A stretch of 62,751 nt of DNA from a virus. Each line of letters opens with the position of its first letter. Position 1 is the first letter of the stretch. The notes below the pieces were generated by a model. That model did not search any database and was not told the DNA's origin. It saw nothing but the letters and a program-made list of their open reading frames with translations. Location of the stretch: positions 1 through 62,751 of the IMG/VR virus record IMGVR_UViG_3300019776_000051. The stretch is one strand, 5' to 3'. This document shows positions 27,060 to 39,040 of the stretch, in pieces. Both the position numbers and the translations under genes were made by a program.

Positions 27060-27075
27060 GTGTCTTCAAAGACAC
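27060..27075. repeat. 16-bp palindrome copy 4, before ribozyme 1
   Basis: GTGTCTTCAAAGACAC, extended by flanks to a 22-bp palindrome (GGAGTGTC...GACACTCC). It starts 13 nt after the amidoligase stop and ends three bases before ribozyme 1. Confidence 0.92.
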
Positions 27076-27078
27076 TCC

Positions 27079-27130
27079 GCTGTCGGGGGATGAGTTGTCC
27101 TCCCTGATGAGTCCCAAAGGACGAAACAGC
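27079..27130 (+). ncRNA. Hammerhead ribozyme 1 (type III)
   Basis: All core elements are present. Stem III GCTGT (27079-27083) pairs with ACAGC (27126-27130). The cleavage nucleotide is C27084 (GTC). Stem I is GGGGGA/TCCTCC with loop TGAGTTG. CTGATGA is at 27104-27110, stem II is GTCC/GGAC with loop CAAA, and GAA is at 27123-27125. The open end is stem III. Self-cleavage would leave the 3' end of the amidoligase mRNA at the palindrome hairpin and give the next gene a 90-nt 5' leader. Confidence 0.93.
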
Positions 27131-27174
27131 AATTTAAACCGGAGGTTTGAAACGCCTCCACAACCACAATCAAT

Positions 27175-27976: not shown

Positions 27977-27992
27977 GTGTCTTCAAAGACAC
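27977..27992. repeat. 16-bp palindrome copy 5, before ribozyme 2
   Basis: GTGTCTTCAAAGACAC, directly abutting stem III of ribozyme 2 with no spacer. Confidence 0.92.
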
Positions 27993-28044
27993 TCCGTCCC
28001 TGAGTGTGTTGCTCAGGCTGATGAGTCCGAAAGGACGAAACGGA
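27993..28044 (+). ncRNA. Hammerhead ribozyme 2 (type III)
   Basis: Stem III TCCGT (27993-27997) pairs with ACGGA (28040-28044). Cleavage follows C27998. Stem I is CCTGAG/CTCAGG with loop TGTGTTG. CTGATGA is at 28018-28024, stem II GTCC/GGAC has loop GAAA, and GAA is at 28037-28039. It lies between the 192-aa gene and the next start, 67 nt downstream of the cut. Confidence 0.95.
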
Positions 28045-28065
28045 AACCACTTAAATCAAATTCAA

Positions 28066-28569: not shown

Positions 28570-28601
28570 TTTGGAGATGTCTAAATTATGTCTTATCTTT
28601 G
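28570..28601 (+). promoter_or_regulatory. Internal promoter before the amidotransferase fusion
   Basis: TTTG (28570-28573), 20 nt, TATCTTTG (28594-28601): strong Bacteroidota-type promoter. It lies 66 nt before the ATG at 28668 and gives the fusion and ribozymes 3 and 4 a second source of transcript. Confidence 0.75.
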
Positions 28602-28667
28602 TTCAAATCAAGTTCAATAATCGGGTTCTATGTCTCTTTAGGCATTGCCCATAAATCAAATCTTACT

Positions 28668-29771
28668 ATGTGTGTAATCATTATCAAGCAGAAAGGGAAG
28701 CACGTCCCTCAGGAGGTTGCAAAGACCTCAGCACGAATCAATCCTCACGGATTGGGAATCATTTGGCTCGACACGTTCGAGGTTACCTATCACAAATCAG
28801 CAGAGTACAAGGTACTCGATACAAAAAGACCATTCATTGCTCACTTTAGATATGCGACCATTGGTGCTATCAACAAAGAGAACACGCATCCATTCAGATG
28901 TGGTAGCAACAAGCAAGAGTGGTTAATGATGAACGGAACGATTAGAAGTCTTGGCAATGTCAAGAAGAGTGACTCAAAGGTATTGGCTGAGAATCTTGGA
29001 GAGATACCACGTCACAAGTGGAAGAAAGAGTTGGAGCAGTATGAGTGCAGGTTCGTTACGATTAACACGCACAGCAGAACGTATCAGATTTATAACAAAG
29101 AGTTGTGGGTTCAGAAGGATGGCGTGTGGTACAGCAAAGACAACGTCCTTGAGGATACATTGGTTGCGGTGTATGGCACGTTGAAGAAAGGGTACAGCAA
29201 TTATAATCACTATTTGACAAGCTCGAAGTATGTGGGTAGTGGGGAGACCAAAGACAAATATCCATTGGTCATTAGCGGGTTGCCGTACTTGATTGAGAAG
29301 AAGGGAGTGGGTCACAATGTGGAGGTGGATGTGTTCAAAGTTAGTAGCTCAGTGCTCAGTGCATTGGACAGGTTAGAGGGGCATCCGAATTGGTACAGGC
29401 GTAAGCAGATTGACATTCAGATGAAAGGTAAGGTGCTTACCTGTTGGATTTATTTTAATCTAAGAGAGCACGAGAAAGGTCACGAGTTGCACAAGACGTA
29501 CACTCAGTTACCTAACAGAGCGAAGTGGTATGAGGAGGAGGATGAACGTGAGAGTGAGGCGTCATTCAGTAGATATACTGAACGTCAATTGAACTTGCTC
29601 GATATATTCGAGGATGAAGATTGTGAAGATTGTGGTTTTGATATAGTAAATGAGAAGCCCATTTGTGTAGATTGTTTTCACGACTTGGAACACGATGGCT
29701 TTGCGAACTACCATTGTTGTGGTTGCGATGGTTGGTTTGCTGAGGATGAGGTACTGCGATTTAGACCTTAA
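28668..29771 (+). CDS. Class II glutamine amidotransferase - GGCT fusion with zinc ribbon
   Basis: This 367-aa protein starts MCVIIIKQKG, so Cys2 becomes the N-terminal nucleophile of an Ntn hydrolase after Met removal. HFRYATIG (59-66) and LMMNGTI (86-92) are class II glutaminase motifs. Residues about 165-270 are a gamma-glutamylcyclotransferase (AIG2-like) domain: YGTLKKG (169-175), LDRLEGHPNWYRR (233-245). The C-terminus has CxxC pairs at 319/322 and 333/336 and a further CCxC, probably zinc-binding. An upstream in-frame start is rejected because the Cys must be residue two. It likely works with the amidoligase in amide or peptide metabolism. Confidence 0.85.
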   Translation: MCVIIIKQKGKHVPQEVAKTSARINPHGLGIIWLDTFEVTYHKSAEYKVLDTKRPFIAHFRYATIGAINKENTHPFRCGSNKQEWLMMNGTIRSLGNVKKSDSKVLAENLGEIPRHKWKKELEQYECRFVTINTHSRTYQIYNKELWVQKDGVWYSKDNVLEDTLVAVYGTLKKGYSNYNHYLTSSKYVGSGETKDKYPLVISGLPYLIEKKGVGHNVEVDVFKVSSSVLSALDRLEGHPNWYRRKQIDIQMKGKVLTCWIYFNLREHEKGHELHKTYTQLPNRAKWYEEEDERESEASFSRYTERQLNLLDIFEDEDCEDCGFDIVNEKPICVDCFHDLEHDGFANYHCCGCDGWFAEDEVLRFRP

Positions 29772-29787: not shown

Positions 29788-29803
29788 GTGTCTTCAAAGA
29801 CAC
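29788..29803. repeat. 16-bp palindrome copy 6, before ribozyme 3
   Basis: GTGTCTTCAAAGACAC, 16 nt after the fusion-gene stop and five bases before ribozyme 3. Confidence 0.92.
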
Positions 29804-29808
29804 TGCCC

Positions 29809-29859
29809 TCCGTCTCAGGATGTGTGTCCTGACTGATGAGCTCGAGAGAGCGAAACGGA
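29809..29859 (+). ncRNA. Hammerhead ribozyme 3 (type III)
   Basis: Stem III TCCGT (29809-29813) pairs with ACGGA (29855-29859). Cleavage follows C29814. Stem I is TCAGGA/TCCTGA with loop TGTGTG. CTGATGA is at 29833-29839, stem II GCTC/GAGC has loop GAGA, and GAA is at 29852-29854. Stem I and II sequences differ from ribozymes 1 and 2 while pairing is kept, which is covariation support. Confidence 0.96.
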
Positions 29860-29879
29860 AACCATCAATCAAAATCATT

Positions 29880-30202: not shown

Positions 30203-30219
30203 GGCAGGGAATCCCTGCC
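30203..30219 (+). other. Hairpin before ribozyme 4
   Basis: GGCAGGG-AAT-CCCTGCC, a perfect 7-bp stem. It replaces the 16-bp palindrome at this site and shares its last two bases with stem III of ribozyme 4, so the two helices compete at the boundary. Confidence 0.85.
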
Positions 30220-30266
30220 GTCCACAGATGTGTGTCTGTGCTGATGAGTTCAAAAGAACGAAACGG
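30218..30266 (+). ncRNA. Hammerhead ribozyme 4 (type III)
   Basis: Stem III CCGT (30218-30221) pairs with ACGG (30263-30266). Cleavage follows C30222. Stem I is CACAGA/TCTGTG with loop TGTGTG. CTGATGA is at 30241-30247, stem II GTTC/GAAC has loop AAAA, and GAA is at 30260-30262. All three stems differ in sequence from the other copies. Confidence 0.95.
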
Positions 30267-32415: not shown

Positions 32416-33060
32416 ATGGAGAAGAAAAAATCAGTCTTTGAAAGACTATCCGCAATCAATGTGAACGACCACGTTGAGAAGAAAGACAATCTTACTTACT
32501 TGTCTTGGGCTTGGGCTTGGACGGCTACTAAAACAGAATGCCCTGATGCCACTTACAAAATTTTAGAGACAGAGTATGATGAGGCTCTTGGGTTTATGTG
32601 TCACACTACTGTTACCATCGAAGGAGAAACCTTAGAGATGTGGTTGCCGGTTATGGATGGCAAGAACAAGTCAATGAAGAAAACTGAGTATAGCTATAGC
32701 ACACGCTTTGGCGACAAGAAGGTTGAGGCTGCGACTACGTTCGACATTAACAAAACCATTATGCGTTGCTTGGTGAAGAACTTAGCGATGTTTGGATTAG
32801 GAATTTATATCTATGCAGGCGAAGACTTACCTGAGGCTGAGTCAGTAGCTAAAGCAGAAGCTCCTAAGAAGACTGCACCTGCGGTTGGCGATAGCTTAAT
32901 TGAACTTAAGAAAGGCACTGAGAATTGGGATGCTGTTGTGAAGTACGTGACAGCTAACAAGAAGAATGGTGTCGAGAAAATCGGTGCTCAATTGGTACGC
33001 AAGTACAAGATTAGCCCCGCTATTAAGAAAGAAATCGCTAACCTAATAAACGCAGAGTAA
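32416..33060 (+). CDS. Single-strand annealing protein, DUF1071 (Sak3-like)
   Basis: This 214-aa protein starts with the DUF1071 pattern DNLTYLSWAWAWTATKTECP, followed by the ETLEMWLPVMDGKNKSM motif and INKTIMRCLVKNLAMFGLGI. Members anneal complementary single strands in phage recombination. It overlaps the exonuclease gene start by one base (TAATG), the usual annealase-exonuclease pair. The C-terminal 60 residues are a helical, basic extension. Confidence 0.85.
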   Translation: MEKKKSVFERLSAINVNDHVEKKDNLTYLSWAWAWTATKTECPDATYKILETEYDEALGFMCHTTVTIEGETLEMWLPVMDGKNKSMKKTEYSYSTRFGDKKVEAATTFDINKTIMRCLVKNLAMFGLGIYIYAGEDLPEAESVAKAEAPKKTAPAVGDSLIELKKGTENWDAVVKYVTANKKNGVEKIGAQLVRKYKISPAIKKEIANLINAE

Positions 33061-33794
33061 TGAACGAGATAATAGAGAAACTACGTGACGATAACGAGTA
33101 CTACAATGGATTAGGCAAGAGTTACCTATCCAATTCAGACATAGGTGTATTGCTTAACAATCCTCAGGACTTTGGCAAGACACGTGAGGATAACAAAGCC
33201 TTTATGGATGGCAGATACTTTCACCAATTAATCTTGGAGCCTGAGAAGGCTAAGGAGATGCCGGCTGTTGATGTGAGCACACGTACTACCAAAGAGTACA
33301 AAGCATTTTGCGAAGCAAATAACCTGCCGTTCTGTATGTTGAAGAAAGAGCAGGACGAGATTCAAAACTTGGTAAGCATTATCAATGGGAACATTGCGTT
33401 CTATGATGAGATTTACAAAGCAGGTAATCAGTATGAGACTCCGGCAATCGGAGAGATTCAGGGAATGATGTGGAAAGGGAAGGCTGATATTGTTACGGAC
33501 AATGCAGTGATTGACCTTAAGACCACAAGTGATATTCATAAGTTCAAGTATTCAGCTAAGTCGTATAACTACGATAGTCAGTGCTACATTTATCAAGAGT
33601 TGTTTGGTAAGCCATTAGTATTCTATGTGATTGACAAAGGCACCGGAGTTCTCGGTATCTTTAGACCAACAGAAGACTTTGTTAAGGGTGGTGAAATCAA
33701 AGTTGGTAAAGCGATTGAAGTATATAACAAGTACTTTAGTTCTAATCCATCAGATGACATTGTGAACTACTACATTGACGAGTACTTGTTATAA
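33060..33794 (+). CDS. PD-(D/E)XK exonuclease (RecE/YqaJ-like)
   Basis: This 244-aa protein has the catalytic core GKADIVTDNAVIDLKTTSD (Asp, Asp, Lys) and the downstream Y-x-x-Q motif (YNYDSQCYIYQ), as in phage 5'-3' exonucleases. Residues 20-60 include SYLSNSDIGVLLNNPQDF and a MDGRYFHQLIL helix typical of the family. With the DUF1071 protein it forms a recombination pair for replication and genome concatemers. Confidence 0.85.
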   Translation: MNEIIEKLRDDNEYYNGLGKSYLSNSDIGVLLNNPQDFGKTREDNKAFMDGRYFHQLILEPEKAKEMPAVDVSTRTTKEYKAFCEANNLPFCMLKKEQDEIQNLVSIINGNIAFYDEIYKAGNQYETPAIGEIQGMMWKGKADIVTDNAVIDLKTTSDIHKFKYSAKSYNYDSQCYIYQELFGKPLVFYVIDKGTGVLGIFRPTEDFVKGGEIKVGKAIEVYNKYFSSNPSDDIVNYYIDEYLL

Positions 33795-33815
33795 TATTTT
33801 GCTCCCCCCAAGCAA

Positions 33816-33831
33816 GTGTCTTCAAAGACAC
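33816..33831. repeat. 16-bp palindrome copy 7, before the tRNA-like element
   Basis: GTGTCTTCAAAGACAC, 21 nt after the exonuclease stop and four bases before the tRNA-like acceptor stem. It has the same position relative to an RNA processing element as copies 4-6. Confidence 0.92.
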
Positions 33832-33835
33832 TAAG

Positions 33836-33926
33836 AGTCAGGTCGCTTAAGAGATGCATAAGTAAGTGCATACGGGTAAAGCGTAGGGATACTATGATGC
33901 AGGTTCGACTCCTGTCCTGACTCCCA
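33836..33926 (+). tRNA. tRNA-like element (non-canonical, 91 nt with encoded CCA)
   Basis: Acceptor AGTCAGG/CCTGACT (7 bp), discriminator C, encoded CCA, and a perfect T arm (GCAGG-TTCGACT-CCTGT, B box GGTTCGACTCC). The 56 nt in between is class-II length but lacks a normal D loop and a U33 anticodon loop. Two alternative folds are possible: a TACG/CGTA stem with loop GGTAAAG (would give anticodon TAA), or nested CGCTT/AAGCG and ATGCA/TGCAT helices. An additional G at -1 faces the discriminator C. It may be a decayed tRNA or a tRNA mimic processed by RNase P. Confidence 0.5.
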
Positions 33927-33979
33927 CTAATCATTAGCTTAGCCTCAGAGGTTGATGGTTAGTTCAAATAGACTGAGGC
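33927..33979 (+). ncRNA. H-type pseudoknot ahead of the SSB-like gene
   Basis: CTAATCAT (33927-33934) pairs with ATGGTTAG (33955-33962; one G-U), and GCCTCAG (33942-33948) pairs with CTGAGGC (33973-33979). The order stem1-stem2-stem1'-stem2' is a classic H-type pseudoknot of 8 and 7 bp with loops of 7, 6 and 10 nt. It follows the tRNA-like CCA directly and ends 20 nt before the ATG, so it could control translation of the SSB-like protein. Confidence 0.65.
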
Positions 33980-33999
33980 AATAAATAAATTTAAGAACA

Positions 34000-34314
34000 A
34001 TGGCACAAGACGAAAAAATCTTTGCAGACGGATTCTCATTTAAGAGAAACGAGAAGGCTCCTGACTTTGTAGTCGGACGATTATCAATGAAGGCAGATGA
34101 AGCCGTGGCTTTCATCCGTCAACACGAGAAAGGTGGATGGGTAAACCTAAACATTAAGACTGCACGCAGCGGCAATCATTATGTTGAGTTGGATACCTAC
34201 GAACCAACACAAGGCGGTGGTATGAAACCACAATCAGAGAAGCCTGCTACTCCGAAACAAAAAGCACCTGAACCTGAGGTTGCTGATGAAGAAGATGGCG
34301 ACCTCCCATTTTAG
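34000..34314 (+). CDS. Single-stranded DNA-binding protein-like
   Basis: This 104-aa protein has a small beta-rich body (FSFKRNEKAPDFVVGRLSMK, GGWVNLNIKTARSGNHYVEL) and a Pro/Lys/Gln linker leading to an acidic tip EEDGDLPF, like the DDDIPF tip of SSB that docks partner proteins. It lies just ahead of the prim-pol/helicase and after the recombination pair. Its leader carries the tRNA-like element and pseudoknot. A strong terminator follows. Confidence 0.7.
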   Translation: MAQDEKIFADGFSFKRNEKAPDFVVGRLSMKADEAVAFIRQHEKGGWVNLNIKTARSGNHYVELDTYEPTQGGGMKPQSEKPATPKQKAPEPEVADEEDGDLPF

Positions 34315-37592: not shown

Positions 37593-39040
37593 TTGAAAGA
37601 CTACCGGCATACAGCAACAAATCAATGTGGGAATACTGCGAGATTCTTAAACGTGTAGTCACTCAGTACAAAGAGGTAAAGGTTGGAAGGGGGAAGCAGA
37701 TAGAGATAATCAAAGTACCTAAATACAATACGGAGCAACACGTGATAGATAAGATTGTCAGCAGTTGTGAACACTATAAAAATTTATACGAGATGGAGGA
37801 CAAGCAAGGATTTAATTATAGGGACTATCAGATTGACATTATCGAGAAAGGTCAGCAGATACTTTCAAAGCATCGCTTTCTTTATTTGGCAATGGAGGTT
37901 CGTACCGGAAAGACCTTGACAAGTCTTGGCATAGCTGAGCGTGTGCACGCAAAGAACGTTCTGTTTATTACAAAGAAGAAAGCACTGAGCACTATATCAG
38001 ATGACTACTCAATGCTGAGCCCATCATATTATATGCAGGTCATTAACTACGAAAGCCTCCACACCGTAATGGATGAGCAGAGATGGGACTTGATTATTTG
38101 TGATGAGGCACACGGGATGGGAGCATTCCCTAAACCAAGTGGACGAGCGGAGTTGGTAGCTGAGGTGATTAGAAAGTGCAGACCAATGGTGATATTACTT
38201 AGCGGAACACCAACACCTGAGTCGTACTCACAGATGTATCATCAGGTCTATGCGATACCTAACAACCCATTCAAAGAGTTTAAGAACTTTTATCGTTTCT
38301 GTGACAAGTATGTCAACGTAAAGCAACGCAAGATTAACGGACTCTTTGTGAAGGATTATAGTGGTGGACTTGAAACCATACTCAAGGAGATGGAACCATA
38401 CACCATTAACTACACGCAGCAGGAAGCAGGCTTTATGGCTGAGACCAAGGAAGAAATACTTGAGGTGGAGATGAAGCCTATGACTTATGCGATGATAAAA
38501 AAATTAAAGAAGGATTTGGTGATAGAAGGGAAAGAAGAAATAATTTTGGCAGACACTCCGGTTAAGTTGATGATGAAGGTGCATCAGTTGTGTAGCGGCA
38601 CGATTAAATTTGAGAGCGGCAATAGTATGATACTTGACTTGAGCAAGGCTGAGTTTATCAAAGAGCAGTTTGAGGGATGCAAAATTGGAATCTTCTACAA
38701 GTTTAAGGAAGAATACAACGCACTCAAGCAGGTATTTGGTGACGAGTTAACCTCTGAGTTAAGTGTCTTTGAAGACACCCATAAAAACATAGCATTGCAG
38801 ATTGTAAGTGGACGAGAGGGAATCAGCCTTAGACAGGCTGAGTATTTGGTTTATTACAACATTGACTTCAGTGCTACGAGTTATTGGCAGAGCAAAGACC
38901 GGATGACTACCAAAGATAGATTGGAGAACCAAGTGTATTGGGTATTTGCCAAGTGTGGAATCGAACACGACATTTATAAAGCTGTCACAAAAAAGAAAGA
39001 CTATACAGTTAACCATTTTAAGAAAGACTTTTATGAATAG
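37589..39040 (+). CDS. SF2 (SNF2-like) DNA helicase
   Basis: This 483-aa protein shows motif I MEVRTGKT (about 100-108), motif II CDEAHG (about 171), motif III LLSGTPTPE (about 203) and a C-terminal lobe with VSGREGISLRQAEYLVYYNID and YWQSKDRMTTKDR in place of the usual QxxGRxxR. Likely a replication or recombination helicase. A 16-bp palindrome copy is inside the gene (38763-38778), encoding SVFEDT. Confidence 0.85.
   Translation: MIERLPAYSNKSMWEYCEILKRVVTQYKEVKVGRGKQIEIIKVPKYNTEQHVIDKIVSSCEHYKNLYEMEDKQGFNYRDYQIDIIEKGQQILSKHRFLYLAMEVRTGKTLTSLGIAERVHAKNVLFITKKKALSTISDDYSMLSPSYYMQVINYESLHTVMDEQRWDLIICDEAHGMGAFPKPSGRAELVAEVIRKCRPMVILLSGTPTPESYSQMYHQVYAIPNNPFKEFKNFYRFCDKYVNVKQRKINGLFVKDYSGGLETILKEMEPYTINYTQQEAGFMAETKEEILEVEMKPMTYAMIKKLKKDLVIEGKEEIILADTPVKLMMKVHQLCSGTIKFESGNSMILDLSKAEFIKEQFEGCKIGIFYKFKEEYNALKQVFGDELTSELSVFEDTHKNIALQIVSGREGISLRQAEYLVYYNIDFSATSYWQSKDRMTTKDRLENQVYWVFAKCGIEHDIYKAVTKKKDYTVNHFKKDFYE
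38763..38778. repeat. 16-bp palindrome copy 8, inside the SF2 helicase gene
   Basis: GTGTCTTTGAAGACAC, translated as part of SVFEDTHK. The reading frame relative to the palindrome differs from copies 1 and 2. Confidence 0.9.

Follow-up and report, generated by a model that had tools for sequence, protein, structure and literature searches.

In MALAT1/mascRNA, RNase P cuts at a tRNA-like element, and the upstream 3' end that results is structured and stabilised. In polycistronic mitochondrial transcripts excised tRNAs set both flanking mRNA ends. Plant mitochondrial t-elements are non-decoding tRNA-like structures at mRNA ends, which RNase P and RNase Z trim and which are modified, CCA-tailed and uncharged (PMC11658184, PMC8003010). 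In gut phages, HDV-like theta ribozymes located beside tRNAs process true suppressor tRNAs (PMC10879173). The mRNA of phage T4 gene 32 is cut by RNase E at -71 and harbours a pseudoknot from -67; gp32 binding is nucleated there and extends into an A/U-rich leader containing UUAAA/UAAA motifs (PMC3014915, PMC535899).

We analysed a virus record of 62,751 nt (IMG/VR IMGVR_UViG_3300019776_000051), in the following referred to as the window, and used relatives from IMG/VR for comparison. 75 relatives were found via the gene downstream of the site of interest, which encodes an SSB-like protein. Counts of loci take in close relatives, and not all loci are independent events. The SSB-like gene is located among genes for a Sak annealing protein, a RecE-like exonuclease, a primase and a helicase. 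Relatives of the primase are chiefly found in phages of Flavobacterium and other Bacteroidota; the host group of this phage seems to be Bacteroidota. Features are summarised in Table 1. Behind the exonuclease gene the intergenic region consists of a C-loop hairpin, the palindrome, 4 nt, the tRNA-like element, the pseudoknot, 20 A/U-rich bases and the ATG. In our view the region 33816-33999 is likely to represent a tRNA-mimic junction for mRNA processing in a polycistronic phage transcript, with the leader pseudoknot as probable operator of the SSB-like gene. In relatives the C-loop hairpin keeps a loop of C5-6 with changed stems (e.g. GCATT-CCCCC-AATGC).

Table 1. Positions of the junction elements, neighbouring genes and hammerhead sites in the window.
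Feature	Position	Strand	Remarks
PDDEXK (RecE/exonuclease VIII-like) gene, upstream of junction	33060..33794	+	PHROG 412 exonuclease VIII 1.5e-27; Pfam DUF3799
Small hairpin TTGCT-CCCCCCA-AGCAA, C-rich loop, directly past exonuclease stop codon	33799..33815	+	read from sequence
Palindrome/hairpin GTGTCTTCAAAGACAC	33816..33831	+	10 copies in window
Spacer TAAG, 4 nt, hairpin to tRNA-like 5' end	33832..33835	+
tRNA-like element with CCA	33836..33926	+	sequence, fold, covariation in relatives
Acceptor stem AGTCAGG / CCTGACT	33836-33842 / 33916-33922	+	perfect pairing; possible 8th pair G33835-C33923
D arm GCTT / AAGC	33845-33848 / 33879-33882	+	GGGT in loop
Inserted hairpin within D arm, 21 nt	33853-33873	+
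Relic arm replacing anticodon arm	33883-33895	+	4 bp, 5-nt loop
T arm GCAGG-TTCGACT-CCTGT	33899-33915	+	perfect
Discriminator; CCA	33923; 33924-33926	+
Predicted cuts: RNase P; RNase Z	33835^33836; about 33923^33924
H-type pseudoknot, leader of SSB-like gene	33926..33979	+	covariation
Pseudoknot stem 1	33926-33940/33949-33963	+	15 bp including G-U, or 8 outer + 7 inner
Pseudoknot stem 2	33942-33948/33973-33979	+	7 bp, ends 20 nt before ATG at 34000
A/U-rich unpaired linker AATAAATAAATTTAAGAACA, reads AAUAAAUAAAUUUAAG	33980..33999	+	UAAA/UUUAA motifs before ATG; A/U-rich in relatives too
SSB-like gene, 104 aa, C-terminal tip DEEDGDLPF	34000..34314	+	acidic tail, gene neighbourhood
Palindrome-cored hairpin + type III hammerhead	27060..27132	+	Rfam RF00008 49.2 bits; predicted cleavage after 27084
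Palindrome-cored hairpin + hammerhead	27977..28046	+	Rfam 44.7 bits, below gathering; predicted cleavage after 27998
Palindrome-cored hairpin + hammerhead	29788..29861	+	Rfam 43.9 bits; predicted cleavage after 29814
Different hairpin GGCAGGGAATCCCTGCC + fourth type III hammerhead	30203..30266	+	pattern search; predicted cleavage after 30222

The sequence-only reading had proposed a palindrome, a tRNA-like element and an H-type pseudoknot stacked before the SSB-like gene. All three are found in this order where it had placed them, but comparison with relatives reveals separable parts rather than one unit. The perfect acceptor stem, perfect T arm and encoded CCA of an element beginning 4 nt past the palindrome are likewise confirmed in the sequence. 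The middle, described as abnormal, turns out to be a D arm with an inserted hairpin followed by a 4-bp relic in place of the anticodon arm. A pseudoknot of 8+7 bp ending 20 nt before the ATG does exist; these figures however combine the outer half of stem 1 with stem 2, whereas the full stem 1 comprises 15 bp.

When 7 Watson-Crick acceptor pairs, a 5-bp T stem and TTCRANY are required, the element is the sole match in the window. The same acceptor/T-arm pattern gives 0 matches in 60 random windows of equal composition. ARAGORN does not find a tRNA at the element, and the Rfam tRNA model scores it with 13.6 bits versus a threshold of 29. Of the parts of a functional tRNA, the 7-bp acceptor, T arm and D arm are present, while a 5-bp anticodon stem with 7-nt loop and U33 is replaced by the relic. 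Taken alone, the tRNA-like part shows no unusual stability compared to shuffled sequences (z = -0.86); its support is comparative. For the leader as a whole, the minimum-energy fold reaches z = -2.75. Covariation was evaluated in 17 relatives using an alignment of the 5' acceptor strand joined to the 3' 24 nt, with the middle omitted. Here 98.5% of the acceptor and T-arm cells are paired, and both sides are changed in 8 of the 12 pairs.

An element is found at the SSB site, between the exonuclease and SSB-like genes, in about 30 of the 75 relatives. Acceptor stem, T arm and D arm are kept. The middle is hypervariable without a decoding anticodon arm, and differs in length and sequence even among close relatives. 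The 3' end is located at -75 to -80 in most relatives bearing an element at this site, here at about -77. D arm and acceptor of the relatives are Leu-like. Behind the acceptor most homologues read ACAA or ACAC, so that the encoded CCA is not conserved and probably incidental here. As in t-elements, a tRNA-like fold is found at an mRNA boundary, and the plant mitochondrial t-element is, by analogy, the nearest known functional analogue. Both are non-decoding, with cutting by RNase P/Z known for t-elements and predicted here. In contrast to t-elements, the present site belongs to a tailed phage, has a short-spaced hairpin ahead as well as a hypervariable insert and is interchangeable with hammerhead ribozymes. 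A tmRNA was rejected, as Rfam does not call one at this site. In one relative (L070:4381-4743) a tmRNA gene (Rfam 97.7 bits), flanked on either side by a tRNA-like element, directly precedes the SSB-like gene region.

The palindrome has 10 sites in the window versus about 0.75 pattern matches expected by chance. Eight of twelve relatives checked carry 9-13 copies per genome. For the 18 tRNA-like elements preceded by a palindrome at the SSB site, the gap from palindrome to tRNA-like 5' end is 4 nt in 15, 5 nt in two and 1 nt in one. For 60 tRNA-like elements on other viral contigs, a stem of at least 5 bp ending 4-5 nt upstream is seen 23 times, compared to 6.9 after shuffling the upstream sequence (about 3.3-fold); at the SSB site upstream stems peak at this distance too. 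Several relatives have before the pseudoknot the palindrome only, or neither palindrome nor tRNA-like element; hence the module is dispensable. The order is reversed in L269, where the palindrome lies behind the tRNA-like element in the approximately 110 nt that precede the SSB-like gene. An intrinsic terminator at the palindrome was rejected, as a U tract is absent behind it.

A further copy (38763-38778) is located within the helicase coding sequence, where it encodes S-V-F-E-D-T (in L003, for example, at +4923 from the SSB gene). Bearing relatives mostly use the codons GTC and GAC, others GTA or GTG; our first codon count comprised only sequences chosen for having the palindrome. Counted on sequences not chosen for the motif, it is missing from several relatives. 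Given a copy inside a gene, adjacency to the tRNA-like element cannot on its own be taken as evidence that a 3' end is formed. Additional copies of GTGTCTTCAAAGACAC lie on the minus strand in the minus-strand half of the genome (6943, 20116, 47901 and 62499), some of them in large ORFs. Judged from its copy number in most relatives together with the helicase copy, the palindrome must have a role beyond mRNA ends.

The hammerhead core CTGANGA...GAAA with three stems is absent at 33800-34000 and present at four other sites of the window; the one at 30203-30266 is missed by Rfam with E values up to 1. Across 26 hammerheads of the phage group the palindrome mostly forms the core of a longer hairpin, whose outer pairs vary between phages and include G-U. 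Predicted cleavage is 6-12 nt past the palindrome at these 26 sites. The tail from the end of the extended hairpin to the predicted cleavage, read off the sequences, is about 3-6 nt. With either type of element the upstream RNA would end as a hairpin with a tail of a few nt.

At the junction homologous to 29788-29861, other phages have a tRNA-like element. Behind the GATase-like gene (window 28599-29771) a hammerhead is found in 22 loci, and tRNA-like elements in L052 and L053; these have a different acceptor (CATCGGG/CCCGATG) and sit behind a terminator-like hairpin. Behind an ORF of 74-77 aa, L023 and L227 have a hammerhead, L058 and L284 tRNA-like elements following a GCTCG-GAAAGA-CGAGC-type hairpin. 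This interchange concerns a small number of lineages, and farther downstream the genes sometimes differ. A true hammerhead was not found at the SSB site; one apparent case is coding sequence. Hammerhead matches behind the exonuclease (L035) and behind Sak (L032) were discarded, being inside coding sequence.

The three structures, their near-constant spacing and the interchange at two junctions are borne out by comparison of the relatives' sequences, and it is the swap which argues most strongly that both element types do the same job. The proposal that the tRNA-like element is a protein-dependent version of the palindrome-hammerhead module is strongly supported on comparative grounds, by the swap as well as by the spacing of 4-5 nt and the similar geometry at hammerheads. 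Its wording should rather be 'host-enzyme-dependent', because bacterial RNase P is itself RNA-catalysed. Type III hammerheads (RF00008) share with the element the same palindrome upstream, a similar distance from hairpin to cut and the interchangeable junctions. They are however self-cleaving in cis, while the tRNA-like element would need host enzymes. Theta ribozymes are a further case of a phage ribozyme in tRNA processing; in contrast to these, an mRNA junction has either a tRNA mimic or a ribozyme here. A limited search of open-licence literature found no reports of tRNA mimics replacing hammerheads in phages.

Based on this analysis, we infer a two-step processing event. The element keeps those parts which are recognised by RNase P, RNase Z and similar enzymes, namely acceptor, T arm and D arm/elbow, without a usable anticodon arm. 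Host RNase P would cut at its 5' end; a cut one base earlier is possible as well, because G33835 can pair with C33923. The mRNA whose 3' end would form here is that of the exonuclease gene. It would terminate in the palindrome hairpin plus 4 nt, similar to the hairpin plus about 3-6 nt left by a hammerhead, and the hairpin would stabilise it. MALAT1/mascRNA differs in being eukaryotic and in having a triple helix where the phage site has a hairpin. A second cut behind the discriminator is predicted for RNase Z or another 3' processor. The next mRNA would then start at about -77, at the pseudoknot, which begins at -74. As in mitochondrial tRNA punctuation, the excised RNA is predicted to set both flanking mRNA ends, but here it is not a decoding tRNA.

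The pseudoknot is, from its covariation, certainly a conserved RNA structure. In 40 aligned leaders all 22 pairs show compensatory change (22/22), and stem 2 is paired to 100%. The covariation score is 0.585 versus 0.251 after shuffling, and the signal is lost on sliding the partners. The pseudoknot tracks the SSB-like gene at a nearly fixed distance in over 50 relatives, with about 19-24 nt to the ATG. It is also present in relatives without tRNA-like element and without palindrome, and hence belongs to the downstream gene.

An acidic C-terminal tail ending in PF is a hallmark of SSBs. The SSB-like protein carries such an acidic tip with the (I/L)PF ending of bacterial-type SSBs. Among its homologues 48 of 52 end in PF, mostly behind an acidic stretch, nearly all reading LPF, IPF or VPF. 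No family or PDB match was found in Pfam, PHROG and PDB. The AF2 models (pLDDT 53 and 61) are too poor to use, and Foldseek gave no match for the first of them. The acidic ...DLPF tail and the gene order are the two features which mark the 104-aa protein as a putative SSB.

As in gene 32, an H-type pseudoknot in the leader of an SSB-like gene is followed by an A/U-rich unstructured region. Pseudoknot and A/U-rich leader are probably a translational operator by which the SSB-like protein would repress its own synthesis. T4 and RB69 gene 32 resemble the site in the H-type pseudoknot at the 5' end of an SSB mRNA (here of a putative SSB) which is processed in T4 and predicted to be so here, in the A/U-rich leader with UAAA and in the position of the cut (about -71 compared to about -77 predicted here). 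Unlike gene 32, sequence and protein are unrelated and stem 1 is longer. Moreover tRNA mimicry is predicted instead of RNase E cleavage, and protein binding is presumed by analogy.

Related elements are found beyond this locus. Searching viral contigs with the 14-base pattern GTCAGGTGGCGGAA, at least 60 elements with distinct middles were extracted among the matches listed. Their 3' ends are near-invariant (ACAGGTTCGAATCCTGTCCTGACTACAA), whereby the acceptor part is partly fixed by the search pattern and the T arm is free; the middles range from 22 to 124 nt. Several elements with different middles occur in one virus (L100), and one class of middle, whose long helix and side hairpin show covariation, is found in seven viral contigs. 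ARAGORN calls a tRNA in 16 of the 60 elements compared to 17% with shuffled middles, in intron mode in 54 of 60 compared to 78%. The 16 calls are little above those for shuffled middles, and given both comparisons there is little sign of decoding in the family. An ordinary tRNA was rejected on these calls and on the missing anticodon arm, an intron-containing tRNA on the intron-mode calls with their inconsistent anticodons and introns. Contigs L087-L166 (e.g. L100, L136, L115) contain a large tRNA-Leu-like family in which the ends are near-invariant and the middles hypervariable; a virus has several members, and some family copies lie near real phage tRNA genes. The strict family pattern has no match in bacterial genome contigs, but being narrow it argues only weakly for a phage-only family. 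BLAST against annotated phages returned partial matches only, mostly to the 3' half and some at real tRNAs. MW202828, the only annotated near relative, lacks the tRNA-like element at this place, and no pseudoknot is recognisable there either.

The tRNA-like element could instead be a gene for a stable small RNA on a tRNA chassis, which RNase P/Z just release and whose variable insert acts as decoy, antisense or regulator. The near-invariance of the ends beyond structural need (ACAGGTTCGAATCCTGTCCTGACTACAA), the differing middles even between copies in one phage, the recurrent class with covarying helices and the copies near ordinary phage tRNA genes all speak for this. We nevertheless regard it as unlikely: the middles at the SSB site differ so widely in close relatives that no common cargo is seen, and hammerheads take its place at two junctions, which agrees with a function in cutting. 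The two roles are mutually compatible. Far less probable still is a decayed phage tRNA gene, now a functionless chance passenger between two genes. The Leu-like D arm and acceptor of relatives, the lost anticodon arm and real tRNA genes in related phages would agree with such an origin, but pairing in acceptor and T arm is kept by compensatory changes while the rest is randomised. Moreover the spacing to the hairpin is near-constant, and many non-decoding copies have the same intact ends.

With regard to the palindrome, a transcription terminator or a DNA-protein site would render its position before the tRNA-like element incidental to RNA processing. This appears somewhat unlikely. The copy number in most relatives checked, the helicase copy with mostly GTC and GAC codons and the palindrome at the SSB site of relatives without tRNA-like element favour it. 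On the other hand no U tract follows here, the hairpin at hammerheads is longer with varying extra pairs including G-U, as expected of RNA, and the distance to the tRNA-like 5' end hardly varies. A leader regulated by something besides the downstream protein, be it ribosome-binding control, RNA stability or a metabolite, is quite conceivable, if not what we favour; the lack of a family match for the protein suits it. However, the pseudoknot follows this one gene at its nearly fixed distance in relatives, and both the acidic SSB-like tail and the A/U-rich leader, as in T4 gene 32, point to the protein itself.

If the proposed mechanism of a tRNA-mimic junction is true, ribozyme and tRNA mimic are interchangeable parts for the same job in one junction set of one genome, and the long-open question of natural hammerhead function in phages becomes directly testable. 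The leader would then be a second viral example of an SSB-like gene controlled by a pseudoknot operator. A wider reading, which we put forward tentatively and consider doubtful, is that phages apparently infecting Bacteroidota may have a widespread family of RNAs, undescribed so far, that do not decode and are built on a tRNA-Leu-like chassis, whose ends are near-invariant and whose structured inserts are hypervariable. Host RNase P and RNase Z would set these RNAs free as stable small RNAs, and the same cut would punctuate phage mRNAs as an exchangeable alternative to hammerheads. tRNA finders miscall or miss this apparently large family of tRNA-like phage RNAs. In L110, L120, L126 and L131 the 5' end of the elements is closely preceded by the sequences TATATTTGC / TATCTTTG, which resemble the Bacteroidota -7 promoter box; based on this motif, some tRNA-like elements may have their own promoter.
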